In this document: positions 9,233 through 15,589 of the stretch, one piece after another
Layout: each line of letters starts with the position of its first letter
How positions within the stretch are numbered: the stretch's first letter is position 1
NCBI RefSeq assembly: GCF_033880585.1
Contig: NZ_CP137624.1
Span: 2,453,501-2,517,500 of the forward strand
Length of the DNA stretch: 64,000 bases
Direction: 5' to 3'
Source: Lysinibacillus louembei
Lineage (GTDB): Bacteria; Bacillota; Bacilli; Bacillales_A; Planococcaceae
Program-made: the position numbers and the translations under genes
Notes under the pieces: model-generated
What the model was told of the DNA's origin: nothing
Databases searched by the model: none
The model's input: the letters and a program-made list of their open reading frames with translations, nothing else

Positions 9233-9700
9233 ATGAGATGTCCAGCTTGTCAATATAAAGATACACGTGTTGTTGATTCAAGACCTGTAGATGATAATAA
9301 AGAAATTAGAAGACGACGTGAATGTGAAAAGTGCTCGTTTCGTTTTACAACGTTTGAAAAAATGGAGGAAACGCCGCTTGTTGTCGTGAAAAAAGAGGGA
9401 GCACGTGAGGAGTTTAGCCGCGAAAAGGTATTGCGTGGGCTGATTCGTGCCTGTGAAAAGCGTCCTGTATCGCTAGAGGAGCTAGAGGAGCTTGTTATTG
9501 CAATCGAAAAAGATTTGCGACGACTAGGTCAATCTGAGGTTCGCTCAGAAGATGTTGGGGAAATGGTGATGGATCGTTTAATGAAATTGGATGAAGTAGC
9601 CTATGTGCGTTTCGCCTCTGTCTATCGTCGTTTTTGCGATGTCGATGCCTTTATTCAAGAATTAAAAGAGCTACAAAACAAGCAAGGAAATGCGCAGTAA
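9233..9700 (+). CDS. nrdR: Transcriptional repressor NrdR
   Basis: ATP/dATP-sensing repressor of ribonucleotide reductase genes. The zinc ribbon uses C3, C6, C31 and C34; the basic RRRRE stretch lies between the Cys pairs; the ATP-cone follows from about residue 46 ([21 protein letters not shown]). Length 155 is typical. The start follows CAGGAGAAA. It leads the nrdR-dnaB-dnaI run, the same order as in Bacillus. Confidence 0.97.
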
Positions 9701-9721: not shown

Positions 9722-12418
9722 ATGACCTTTATGAATCAATTACATCCGTATGATATTTGTGAAGTTCAATGCCCTCACGAATTTAATGCTATCAATCAAA
9801 AAATATTGCAGCTTTGCTACCAGCCGATTATCGGTGTGGATGCGGTTGCACTTTATTTAAAGCTGTCAGTCGAAGCAGCGAATGAGCATATAGCCTTCCA
9901 TCATCATTATTTGCTTGATAGCTTAGATTTTTCGATAAAAAAGCTTTTCCAAGCAAGAATTACATTAGAAGCAATTGGCCTGCTACAAACATTTTGCAAA
10001 ATGGAAGATGATACAACGCATTATATTTATCGTGTCAACCAACCATTGGAGGCAAAGTCGTTTTTTGCGGACCCCATTTTATCTGTATCATTAATGCGCA
10101 AGATTGATAAAAAAGCCTTTGAGCATTTGCGCAATACGCTCGTACCAAAGGAGCAGAAGCTACATAATTATACAGAGGTGACGCGCGGCTTTAATGATGT
10201 GTTTTTAAATGTGACGGAAAAAGAATTGCAGCAAATCGAGCAGCTTTATCCAGAGCAAGGCGGCGAAATAGCAACAGCTGGCTACGACTTTGACTATAAT
10301 TCCTTTGATTTTAAGCTGTTTTTCGACGGTATTAGTCAAGCGCTTATTCCACGCAAGCTTTTTACAGCAGAGGTGAAGCAAGCAATTGCGAAGGTAGCCT
10401 TCCTTTATCATTTTTCGCCATTAGACATGCAGCAAATTGTCATGCAGGCATTATCGGATGAGCAAACATTAACAGCTGCCATGATTGAAAAAACGGCGCT
10501 CGATCATTATCAGCTAAGTGGTCATCGTCAAAATAATTATCAATTAGTCAAGCGCTATGAGCTTGCACCGAAAGTGGAAAAGCCAGTCCAAAAAGAGAGC
10601 GGCAGAGATGCGCATATTCACTATTTGGATACGACCTCACCAATTGAAGTGTACGAGGAGGTGCAAGGGGCTTCTCCGACAGATACGACGGTTCGGCTGT
10701 TCAATGATTTTTTAAATAGAGGCATTTCCTATGGTGTTATTAATACATTAATTCAATATATTGCGATGTCTAATGGACGTCTGGATTATAATGTGAATTT
10801 AATGCAGAGCATTATGGATACATGGGTAAGGAATGGGGCAAAAACAGCTGAGGATGCGATGCGCATTGCCAAAGAGGAGCATCATAAGCGCAACGGTAAA
10901 GTGGTACCAACAATTCAAAAAACAGTGCACTCAGTAGCTACAAATATTCCAGAGGCAATGAAGGATTACGAGCTGTCTACACCATATGAATTTTTGAAGC
11001 TATTAACTAAGGGCAAGGAGCCATTTAAAAATCAATTAAAAACGGCTGAAAGCTTAATGACGGTTTATGATATCGCACAAGGGGTCACAAATGTTATCGT
11101 TGAGCATGTGTGGAAGCTGTCAAATGGCAAGCTACCTGAAAAATTCGTCGAATCGGTTGCTGCTGAAATGCAGCAGCAAAATATTCAAACAGCAGAGCAG
11201 GCGAAGCAATTTTTAGCAAAGCGCAATGCGACACCTTATAAAATCAATCAAGATGCGCTAGGCGAATTTGCGGCTTCCCCACAAGCGCTTATTTATGACC
11301 GGACAACGCCATATGAATTTTTAAAGCAGCTGTATCATGGCAAGGAGCCTGTACGCTTTATTGTCGAGCTAGCGGAGCAGCTTGTATTAGCGCAAAAAAT
11401 GCCAATCGGTGTTGTTAATTATTTAATGGAATATGCGATGCGTGAAACAAATGGAAAATTAACGCAAAACTATGTACAAGCCATTGCTAGCAACTGGATG
11501 GCACATGATTTAAAAAGTGCAGCAGACGCCATTCATTTAGTGGAGCAGGAGCAGCAAGGCGCTACAAAGCATAAAATTACGATGGACACGCCACTTGCCT
11601 TTAAAGCGAAACAGAAGGATTTAACAAATTGGTCACCACGCTATGATGAAACGATTCCTTATGAGTTTTTAAAGGCGCTGAAAAATGGCGAGGAGCCGTT
11701 GCCATATGTCGTGGAAATGGCTGAAAGCTACGTAACAGCTGGCTTAACGGTAGGTGTGGTTAATGCGATGTTTGAGCATGTCATTACAAAGGCAGGTCGT
11801 ATTAATAAAAAACATATCGAGGCATTAGCGGCAAATTTGCAAATACAAAATATTATGCTTGCAAAGGATGCGTTACACTATTTACAGCAGCAAAACCAAA
11901 ATGCGACAATTACAAATGATAGTTTAGCGCAATATTATCCAGCCAACTACGTTTTTGGCATGGCGGATGATAAGTACGAAAAGCAAGCACCGTATGATTT
12001 TATTAAACAGCTTAATAACGGGCAAGAGCCGTTCCCGTACACGGTTAAGGCGGCTGAAAATTTAATCACACGCTATGGCATGGTGCCTGCTGTCGTTAAT
12101 TTTTTACTGGAGTATGTGCTACAAAAAACGGATGGTGCATTGCCGGAGAAATATATTAACAGCGTGGCGGATTCATGGCGTCGCCAGCAAATTCAGACGG
12201 TGGAGCAGGCGCAAAGCTATGTGAAGGGTGCTGAACAAAAGGCACTAGCAAGCAAAGGAAAGAAAGTTGAAGTTGTTCCTGAATGGTTTAATAAACCAAA
12301 GGAGGAGCCTGTCAAGGAAGAACCGGCAGAGGTAGTAGATATAGATGCAGAATACAATAAATTATTGCAGCAATTTCGCAATTATGATGGGAAGGTGAAG
12401 AGCGATGGAACCGATTAA
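9722..12418 (+). CDS. dnaB: Replication initiation/membrane attachment protein DnaB, greatly enlarged
   Basis: Bacillus DnaB works with DnaD and DnaI to load the replicative helicase at oriC and restart sites. The N-terminal 290 residues resemble the DDBH1 part (MTFMNQLHPYDICEVQCP onward). The protein is 898 residues, whereas B. subtilis DnaB has about 470. The extra length is a tandem series of DDBH2-like (DnaB_2) domains beginning near residues 306, 420, 529, 644 and 756, each opening with a PYEFLK-like motif and GKEP. The extreme C-terminus is acidic (EEPVKEEPAEVVDIDAE). The ATG follows AGGAGGGTTCCC. It overlaps dnaI by 14 bp. No frameshift is visible. Identity is firm from synteny; the role of the extra domains is unknown. 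Confidence 0.92.
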   Translation: MTFMNQLHPYDICEVQCPHEFNAINQKILQLCYQPIIGVDAVALYLKLSVEAANEHIAFHHHYLLDSLDFSIKKLFQARITLEAIGLLQTFCKMEDDTTHYIYRVNQPLEAKSFFADPILSVSLMRKIDKKAFEHLRNTLVPKEQKLHNYTEVTRGFNDVFLNVTEKELQQIEQLYPEQGGEIATAGYDFDYNSFDFKLFFDGISQALIPRKLFTAEVKQAIAKVAFLYHFSPLDMQQIVMQALSDEQTLTAAMIEKTALDHYQLSGHRQNNYQLVKRYELAPKVEKPVQKESGRDAHIHYLDTTSPIEVYEEVQGASPTDTTVRLFNDFLNRGISYGVINTLIQYIAMSNGRLDYNVNLMQSIMDTWVRNGAKTAEDAMRIAKEEHHKRNGKVVPTIQKTVHSVATNIPEAMKDYELSTPYEFLKLLTKGKEPFKNQLKTAESLMTVYDIAQGVTNVIVEHVWKLSNGKLPEKFVESVAAEMQQQNIQTAEQAKQFLAKRNATPYKINQDALGEFAASPQALIYDRTTPYEFLKQLYHGKEPVRFIVELAEQLVLAQKMPIGVVNYLMEYAMRETNGKLTQNYVQAIASNWMAHDLKSAADAIHLVEQEQQGATKHKITMDTPLAFKAKQKDLTNWSPRYDETIPYEFLKALKNGEEPLPYVVEMAESYVTAGLTVGVVNAMFEHVITKAGRINKKHIEALAANLQIQNIMLAKDALHYLQQQNQNATITNDSLAQYYPANYVFGMADDKYEKQAPYDFIKQLNNGQEPFPYTVKAAENLITRYGMVPAVVNFLLEYVLQKTDGALPEKYINSVADSWRRQQIQTVEQAQSYVKGAEQKALASKGKKVEVVPEWFNKPKEEPVKEEPAEVVDIDAEYNKLLQQFRNYDGKVKSDGTD
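10637..12250 (+). repeat. Five tandem DDBH2-like domain repeats within dnaB
   Basis: Units start at 10637, 10979, 11306, 11651 and 11987, a period of 109-115 codons. All share a PYEFLK-like opening (unit 1: SPIEVYEEV), then G(K/E/Q)EP in units 2-5, GVVN or a variant, and a helix ending in the DnaD-type YxxxIxxxW position. That motif reads LxxxIxxxW in unit 1, YxxxIxxxW in unit 3 and YxxxVxxxW in unit 5, but FxxxVxxxM in unit 2 and HxxxLxxxL in unit 4. Units 2 and 4 also share AES and EHV; units 3 and 5 share KQL and EY. The repeats look divergent rather than recent. Confidence 0.8.
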
Positions 12419-13384: not shown

Positions 13385-13630
13385 ATATAATTCAAAGCAT
13401 TGAAAAGGATACGAAGTTTGTGTACCGACTTTTAGAGAGGGGAGCCTTGGCTGGAAGCTACCTAAGTACGACACACTCTTTACTACCTTGGAGCTGTGGC
13501 GGGGATAATCCGTCAACGTTGATCAGTACGTTAACTGACCTAGAGCTTCGTTCGAGAGTATTCTCGGAAGGAAGAAGGGTGGAACCACGAGCATACGCGT
13601 CGTCCCTTTGTTGGGATGGCGCTTTTTTTG
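13385..13630 (+). promoter_or_regulatory. T-box leader of thrS
   Basis: A tRNA-sensing T-box riboswitch. The T-box core GGTGGAACCACG is at 13578-13589, preceded by the AAGAAG run typical of the antiterminator. Stem I carries AGAGAGGGGAGCC and a GNUG-type loop (GGCTGG) near 13433-13454. Threonine codons ACT (13482) and ACC (13485) lie on the descending side of stem I, so one of them is the likely specifier. The terminator stem GCGTCGTCCC (13597-13606) pairs with GGGATGGCGC (13613-13622), followed by seven T. Uncharged tRNA-Thr should favour read-through into thrS. Confidence 0.92.
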
Positions 13631-13657
13631 TGGGAAAAAATAAAGGAGGACATCAAC

Positions 13658-15589
13658 ATGTCAGAAATGATGAAATTAACTTTCCCAGATGGCGCTGTGA
13701 AGGAGTACGCAGTTGGTACATCGACAGAGGAAGTAGCACAATCAATTAGCCCAGGCTTACGCAAAAAAGCGTTAGCTGGTAAAGTAAACGGTCAATTAGT
13801 GGACTTAAAAACAGCGATTGAAGCAGACGCAGCAATCGAAATCATTACACCAGAATCACCAGAGGCGTTAGAAATTTTACGCCACTCAACAGCGCATTTA
13901 ACAGCGCAAGCAGTAAAACGTCTATACCCAGATGCGAAGCTAGGCATCGGTCCAGTTATCGATTCAGGCTTCTATTATGATATTGATTCACCAACACCGA
14001 TTACAACAGAAGATTTACCTGCAATCGAAAAGGAAATGCGTAAAATTATCGCTGAAAATATCGAAATTGAGCGCAAAAACGTTTCACGCGATGAAGCGCA
14101 AAAAATTTATGAAGAAGTTGGCGACGAATATAAATTAGAGCTACTTGAAGCCATCCCAGCAGATGAGCAAGTATCGATTTATTATCAAGGTGATTTCTTC
14201 GACCTTTGCCGCGGTATCCACGTGCCATCAACAGGCAAATTGAAGGAATTCAAGCTATTATCACTTGCGGGTGCATACTGGCGAGGTAATTCAGATAATA
14301 AAATGCTACAACGTATTTACGGTACAGCATTCTTCACAAAGGATGAGCTAAAGCATCATATTCAAATGCTTGAAGAAGCAAAGGAGCGCGACCACCGTAA
14401 AATCGGTAAAGAGTTAGATTTATTTATGACATCGCAAACTGTAGGGCAAGGCTTACCATTATGGCTGCCAAACGGTGCAACAATCCGCCGTACAATTGAG
14501 CGTTATATCGTTGATAAAGAGATTTCATTAGGCTACAAGCATGTGTACACACCAGTGCTAGGCTCGAAAAAATTATATGAAACGTCTGGACACTGGGGTC
14601 ACTATCAGGACGGCATGTTCCCACCGATGGAAATGGATAATGAAACATTAGTGTTACGTCCGATGAACTGCCCGCACCATATGATGATTTTCAAAAACGG
14701 CTTGCATTCATACCGTCATTTACCAATCCGCATTGCGGAGCTTGGTACAATGCACCGTTATGAAATGAGTGGCGCGGTATCTGGCTTACAGCGTGTACGT
14801 GGTATGACATTAAATGATGCGCATATTTTCGTTCGCCCAGACCAAATTAAAGCGGAATTCAAAAAAGTAGTGGAATTAATTTTAGAAGTATACAAAGACT
14901 TCGACATTAATGACTACTCATTCCGTTTATCATACCGTGATCCAAACAACAAAGAGAAATACTTCGATGATGATGAAATGTGGGAAACAGCGCAAGCAAT
15001 GCTGAAAGAAACAATGGACGAATTAGGCTTAGACTACTTCGAAGCAGAGGACGAAGCAGCGTTCTACGGTCCAAAGCTAGACGTGCAAGTAAAAACAGCC
15101 ATCGGTAAAGAAGAAACATTATCAACAGCACAGCTTGATTTCTTATTGCCACAGCGCTTTGACCTTTCTTACATTGGTGAAGACGGTCAGCCACAGCGTC
15201 CAGTAGTTATCCACCGCGGTGTCGTATCAACAATGGAGCGCTTCGTAGCCTTCTTAATCGAAGAATACAAAGGGGCATTCCCAACTTGGTTAGCACCAGT
15301 ACAAGTGGAAATCATTCCTGTATCAAATGCGGTGCACTACGATTATGCAAAGCAAATCGAAGAACAATTAATGGCAGCAGGCATCCGTGTCGAAATGGAT
15401 GACCGCGAAGAAAAGCTAGGCTACAAAATCCGCGAAGCCCAAATGAAAAAAATTCCGTACATGCTTGTGATCGGTGACAAGGAAGTCGAAGCTGGCGGCG
15501 TCAACGTTCGTCGCTACGGCTCAAAGGATTCGGAAACAGTTTCATTTGAGGAATTCTTGAATGGCCTGAAAGAAGAAGTGAAGAAATAA
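13658..15589 (+). CDS. thrS: Threonyl-tRNA synthetase
   Basis: Class II synthetase charging tRNA-Thr. Domain order: TGS (about 1-63), editing/SAD domain with HSTAH (76-80), class II catalytic core with the zinc-ligand motif MNCPHH, and a C-terminal anticodon-binding domain ending in [11 protein letters not shown]. Length 643 equals the Bacillus norm. The ATG at 13658 follows AAAGGAGGA; upstream in-frame codons fall inside the T-box terminator. A near-copy of the last 43 codons plus the terminator occurs 1,066 bp downstream. Confidence 0.98.

Follow-up and report, generated by a model that had tools for sequence, protein, structure and literature searches.

The dnaB gene of Lysinibacillus louembei encodes an accessory helicase loader whose C-terminal domain (CTD) is expanded from one to five DDBH2 units, giving a protein of 898 residues. 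This five-unit DnaB is a new form of a loader already known, and the way it is inherited is unusual. On balance we favour a reading in which the expansion is inherited, and has been transferred, together with its own DnaI, and in which units 2–5 would form an arm carrying the DnaI-binding tail. The gene lies in a stretch of 64,000 nucleotides (contig NZ_CP137624.1, positions 2,453,501 to 2,517,500; here called the window), from a genome that grouped with Metasolibacillus in our comparison of the family Planococcaceae.

Locus and domain architecture

The open reading frame (window positions 9722–12418, + strand) has an ATG start and an AGGAGGG ribosome site, and the gene order nrdR-dnaB-dnaI-thrS is that of the chromosomal locus normal for dnaB; frame and locus together confirm the original prediction of a DnaB, in the dnaB position, of about twice the usual length. 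Both dnaB and dnaI are single-copy in each genome. The features of the region are as follows.

9233..9700, +: nrdR, upstream neighbour; native in the five-unit genomes tested; left edge of the putatively exchanged stretch
9722..12418, +: dnaB, five-unit accessory helicase loader, 898 aa (open reading frame, profile and structure-sequence matches)
9722..10621, +: N-terminal and middle domains, residues 1–300; match 5wtn and 29km; DnaA-facing, tetramer-forming part by homology (PMC13326638)
10637..10888, +: unit 1, residues 306–389; orthologue of the single CTD in ordinary DnaB; position L364 of the groove for the DnaD tail is hydrophobic
10979..11227, +: unit 2, extra DDBH2, residues 420–502; Trp of YxxxIxxxW absent
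11306..11557, +: unit 3, extra DDBH2, residues 529–612; Trp present
11657..11902, +: unit 4, extra DDBH2, residues 646–727; Trp absent; no PF07261 match at E 0.001; superposes on DnaD DDBH2
11990..12241, +: unit 5, extra DDBH2, residues 757–840; Trp present; superposes on DnaD DDBH2
12242..12415, +: C-terminal tail, residues 841–898; VP-[DE]-WF motif and terminal helix at 874–886; DnaI-binding C-terminal tail (CTT) by homology (PMC13326638)
12405..13346, +: dnaI, AAA+ helicase loader; its start overlaps the end of dnaB
13616..15589, +: thrS, downstream neighbour; native in five-unit genomes; right edge of the putatively exchanged stretch

A candidate T-box leader lies between dnaI and thrS (window positions 13391–13610; RF00230, 78 bits against a gathering score of 93, E 1.9e-17)—such a leader is expected there, since thrS is the gene for threonyl-tRNA synthetase.

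Residues 1–300 match solved DnaB structures (5wtn, E 1.6e-38; 29km, from Bacillus subtilis, E 3.4e-44), and the predicted structure agrees with 5wtn over residues 1–280 (Z 18.0). The 5wtn structure, Geobacillus stearothermophilus DnaB 1–300, shares fold and sequence with this part of the protein; its construct ends before the CTD and is uninformative on the array. B. subtilis DnaB (29km; PMC13326638) has the locus, the N-terminal and middle domains, a DDBH2 CTD corresponding to unit 1 and the DnaI tail in common with the window protein; however, it has one CTD instead of five and 472 residues instead of 898, and its CTD and tail are close together, whereas in the five-unit protein some 450 additional residues separate the tail from the core. 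The alignment of unit 1 is with residues 308–402 of B. subtilis DnaB, and the putative DnaI-binding tail is recognizable in both sequence and predicted structure by its VPEWF motif and terminal helix.

The repeats themselves are well separated from background. Pfam DnaB_2 (PF07261) matches the 898-residue protein with E 1.5e-42 in four significant stretches, which a genome-level search placed on units 1, 2, 3 and 5; the Pfam check proposed with the original prediction succeeded for these units and failed for unit 4, which was found by an iterated HMM instead. That HMM detects all five units (71, 100, 109, 83 and 111 bits for units 1 to 5), against a top score of 9.2 bits among 1000 shuffled copies of the protein, with starts at residues 306, 420, 529, 646 and 757 (predicted: 306, 420, 529, 644 and 756). 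Profile comparison of the extra units with unit 1 gives E 5e-38, and units 2–5 can be seen in the DNA as four 57-nt copies spaced by 327, 348 and 333 nt. Unit 1 is orthologous to the CTD of one-unit DnaBs, and units 2–5 make up a distinct subfamily placed between unit 1 and the DnaI-binding tail. The NCBIfam equivalog models score the protein at 379.5 of 570 bits (NF053829) and 320.8 of 800 bits (NF052657); these cut-offs are not discriminating here, as the ordinary one-unit DnaB of U. massiliensis is also under both. The middle domain of DnaB has been viewed as DDBH2-like in earlier literature. We rejected it as a sixth, cryptic unit; the profile comparison was not significant, even though its top local alignment is in register with YxxxIxxxW.

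AlphaFold2 predicts the same five-helix pattern five times with flexible links between (mean pLDDT 71.5, pTM 0.28), in line with the like-built repeats that were foreseen. Unit 5 superposes on the DDBH2 domain of DnaD (9a5c_B, Z 9.6, 2.7 A over 89), as does unit 4, the weakest unit (9a5c_B, Z 8.8, 2.9 A over 88; 2i5u, Z 6.3); for unit 4, Foldseek alone gave no significant match, and the match came from a second look with VIA-align. Units 4 and 5 are assigned the fold of solved DDBH2 domains by superposition, and units 1–3 by their identical helix pattern only. The fold is shared with DnaD (DDBH1-DDBH2) and with phage and plasmid PF07261 / DnaD_dom proteins (compare 9a5c_B and 2i5u), which differ in having one DDBH2 per protein and another N-terminal domain.

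Distribution and origin of the extra units

We surveyed 261 Planococcaceae genomes, 259 of which gave a match; units were counted by HMM in 66 proteins, and the remaining genomes were assigned by open-frame length only. In most genomes the DnaB open frame is 446–501 aa, corresponding to one unit. Two-unit proteins of 571–615 aa (open frames of 576–615 aa in the survey) occur in 12 genomes from two genera (8/8 and 4/4), and five-unit proteins of 863–935 aa in 20 genomes: all five of Metasolibacillus, all three of Metalysinibacillus, 6 of the 16 of Solibacillus, and six of Ureibacillus, a genus in which most species are one-unit. Five-unit species include M. meyeri, B. (M.) ndiopicus, U. manganicus, U. 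acetophenoni, U. xyleni, L. endophyticus, M. jejuensis and L. alkalisoli. The family survey proposed with the original prediction therefore finds that the long form is not unique to the window genome, being present in four genera, and that it is not a property of all related genera. None of the 66 HMM-counted proteins has three, four or six units, and no three- or four-unit form was seen in the 259 genomes, as judged mostly by open-frame length. Apparent arrays of more than five units were rejected—frames of 912–1252 aa read through past the stop codon into dnaI, and the DNA gives 863–935 aa.

Every match examined outside the family had one unit; a class-wide survey (399 genomes, 197 with a match) gave no open frame above 560 aa outside the family among the matches listed. 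The phage and viral collections held no record with the array and no viral contig, and the five large records that match in the plasmid collection carry only shorter DnaB-like or DnaD-domain proteins. A mobile-element source for the array was rejected on these grounds. The window genome has other DnaD-domain proteins: a prophage-like pair consists of a DnaD-domain replication protein (288 aa) and, overlapping it, a DnaC-type AAA+ loader (274 aa), and at about 3113000 an open frame of FNPFSLYREK / SIHSLYTERN repeats, which looks like a translated CRISPR array, lies close to a 275-aa DnaD-domain protein whose VPKWF... tail resembles the DnaB C-terminal tail.

In the tree of units, units 2–5 of all five-unit proteins form one clade (support 100/99), which includes no unit 1 and excludes the second unit of two-unit proteins. 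The two-unit DnaBs likewise have a second DDBH2 between CTD and tail; however, that unit groups with its own unit 1 lineage (this separation is the best tree, although a tree uniting it with the five-unit extras is not rejected, p 0.136), the linkers are 55–62 residues long, and position 364 stays aromatic. Since the second unit groups away from the five-unit extras, the two-unit form is probably an independent duplication. Within the five-unit clade, the extras of Metasolibacillus and Solibacillus interleave with those of Ureibacillus and Metalysinibacillus, and holding each set as its own clade is rejected (p 0.04); this interleaving weakly favours a multi-unit ancestor of the five-unit arrays. 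Positional orthology, unit by unit, across all five-unit proteins is not supported (unit 2 or unit 3 as one clade, p 0.03 and 0.014).

The original prediction was correct that the YxxxIxxxW Trp is kept in units 1, 3 and 5 of the window protein and lost from units 2 and 4, but the duplication of a two-domain block that it drew from this pattern is not supported. Units 2/4 are 42% identical and units 3/5 32%, against 39% for 2/5 and 40% for 3/4, so that the units do not sort into the proposed pairs; the unit tree has no 2+4 / 3+5 pattern; and only Metasolibacillus and Solibacillus lack the Trp in units 2 and 4, since in Ureibacillus and Metalysinibacillus all or nearly all units of the five-unit DnaBs have it. 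On substitution ratios within groups (dN/dS 0.006–0.14 for every unit), every unit is under strong purifying selection, and the array is conserved along its full length. Ongoing positive selection is not supported, dN/dS being low in all units and in dnaI. Unit 5 of Ureibacillus acetophenoni DnaB (residues 756–838) weakly matches PF19011 (DUF5740; 21.2 bits, cut-off 26.5), and DUF5740 may be related to DDBH2.

Probable joint exchange of the array and dnaI

The five-unit state does not follow the host tree, which we built from RpoB, the replicative helicase, DnaD and NrdR of 30 genomes: five changes are needed (four of them forced), and a single host clade is rejected (p 2e-8). Between the five- and one-unit members of Solibacillus, RpoB (95%), helicase (96%), DnaD (72%), NrdR (94%), ThrS (95%) and DnaA (93% in domain I, 96% in the rest) are as similar as among one-unit congeners, whereas the DnaB N-part is only 34% identical, unit 1 25% and DnaI 45%; the one-unit members reach 78%, 88% and 89% among themselves. 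The five-unit Solibacillus N-part is nearest to that of Metasolibacillus, and its placement in its own genus is rejected (p 5e-6). The N-part of these two groups together is extremely diverged (a branch of 3.84 changes per site); DnaA domain I, with which it is expected to pair, shows only mild change.

In Ureibacillus, two separate groups have five units and a native DnaB N-part (about 80% over the first 100 residues). The break comes just before unit 1, which is 62% identical to that of congeners, against 90% among them; DnaI is at 46–54% to congeners, against 72%, and ThrS is back to normal. The DnaI stem branch is 1.19 to a host-tree stem of 0.046 in the five-unit Solibacillus, and 1.04 to 0.025 and 0.62 to 0.034 in the Ureibacillus groups, but 0.32 to 0.15 in Metasolibacillus and 0.31 to 0.21 in Metalysinibacillus, as in ordinary lineages. 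From these branches, Metasolibacillus and Metalysinibacillus look like old holders of the array, and Solibacillus and the two Ureibacillus groups like later recipients. The DnaI link accordingly rests on the three recipient lineages, the DnaIs of the two old holders being ordinary for their host branch length.

The DnaIs of five-unit species group together (82/92, not starred and joining long branches), and holding them within their own genera is rejected (p 0.024). Recipient DnaIs are only about 45–55% identical to any sampled DnaI outside their own group, and no donor was found among the sampled genomes. They are most changed at residues 21–60, 121–160, 201–220 and 261–300, the second of which includes the DnaB contacts F131, V134, F145 and L152; no co-change of DnaA, DnaD or the helicase with the array was seen between five- and one-unit genomes. 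Recombinational exchange at the dnaB-dnaI locus is the best reading of this distribution, and the simplest is that the C-terminal array and DnaI have been inherited and transferred between species as one module.

A proposed arm and its alternatives

The contacts mapped for B. subtilis DnaB, partly by AF3 prediction, suggest how the array may work: DnaA is contacted by the N-terminal domain; L315, L350, Y360 and L364 of the single CTD receive the DnaD tail, and K456, M459, M460 and L466 of the C-terminal tail bind the AAA+ domain of DnaI (PMC13326638). In all five-unit proteins the VP[DE]WF motif (with variants such as PKWF and PEWL) and the terminal helix remain at the extreme C terminus, which puts units 2–5 between the DnaD-docking unit and the DnaI-docking tail. 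By analogy, the N-terminal core would still tetramerise and meet DnaA, and unit 1 would still take the DnaD tail; units 2–5 would be a flexible multi-domain arm that holds the tail, and hence the DnaI-helicase complex, far from the core, and may provide additional surfaces on which DnaI or the arms of neighbouring DnaB molecules could dock. DnaI would have to fit this arm, which would be why dnaB and dnaI move together. The position of the tail, together with the change of DnaI at its DnaB-contact region, is consistent with an arm that terminates in DnaI and is adapted to it.

Could the array instead be a multivalent scaffold, with each unit docking a DnaD tail or single-stranded DNA as part of a larger clamp at oriC or at stalled forks? 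Every unit is homologous to DDBH2, the DnaD tail (FYNWLEERE) is almost invariant, and units 2–5 have an aromatic residue at the L315 position and a hydrophobic one at the L350 position. At groove position L364, however, every unit 1 has L, I or M, while the extra units have a polar or small residue there and share instead a start of the form Y-x-x-x-[TIA]-P-Y-x-F-[LIVM]; DnaD does not change with the array. The longer single-stranded DNA clamp of the original prediction is disfavoured by the absence of extra positive charge (the units are neutral to slightly acidic, net −4, 0, −3, −3 and 0) and by the link of the YxxxIxxxW residues to higher-order oligomerisation in B. subtilis DnaB (PMC13326638); we regard the scaffold as unlikely. 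That the extra domains are neutral, tolerated spacers is more improbable still: one-unit forms suffice in most of the family, but the selection on every unit and a count constant at five in four genera speak against it.

The remaining alternatives concern the transfer. If arrays had expanded independently in several genera, the DnaI changes would be local bursts of fast evolution after expansion. Independent expansion probably did happen once, in the two-unit proteins (the p of 0.136 notwithstanding), and unit positions differ between the two sets of five-unit genera; however, the single clade of extras, its interleaving, the wholly foreign N-part of Solibacillus and the lack of three- and four-unit forms among 259 genomes make it a doubtful account of the five-unit proteins. 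Alternatively, phages that target or hijack the loader may have driven the exchange of the pair: a divergent pair would escape an inhibitor, and the five units would come along in the foreign allele. There is a precedent in ORF104 of phage 77, which blocks the DnaI AAA+ domain in Staphylococcus aureus (PMC4887207), and recipient DnaIs are strongly diverged both where they contact DnaB and in AAA+ segments, while native partners are unchanged. Against this, the dN/dS of dnaI within groups (0.02–0.08) gives no sign of an ongoing race, and the phage records searched lack the array. We know of no loader inhibitor in five-unit hosts, and we give phage escape a low probability as the cause. Joint inheritance of the array with its DnaI, as an arm and its partner, remains the reading we prefer. 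A bolder form of it is possible, though we hold it tentatively and as less probable: array and DnaI would be an alternative loading module set on the native DnaA, DnaD and helicase, having replaced the standard one at least three times by recombination, Ureibacillus DnaB would be a natural chimera in which the domains facing DnaA are native and the arm facing DnaI is foreign, and the module would load helicase with a different geometry or escape phages that target the loader.

The original prediction would have counted the 900-residue form as nothing new had all related genera shown it and had it been in print; no description of a multi-unit DnaB was found in the literature searched, which covered few subscription journals, and neither dnaB nor dnaI is mentioned in the genus-defining study of the family. 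Because cells depend on helicase loading, slow and vertical evolution is expected of its core proteins. A loader with one, two or exactly five copies of its C-terminal domain, the five-copy form going with an altered DnaI and having apparently passed from genus to genus, provides natural part-swaps that show which domains must match which partner. It opens to experiment the current question of how two DnaI-helicase complexes are positioned at oriC by a single DnaB tetramer, and what reach the C-terminal arm needs. In the five-unit bacteria, helicase loading may use a different, exchangeable module.
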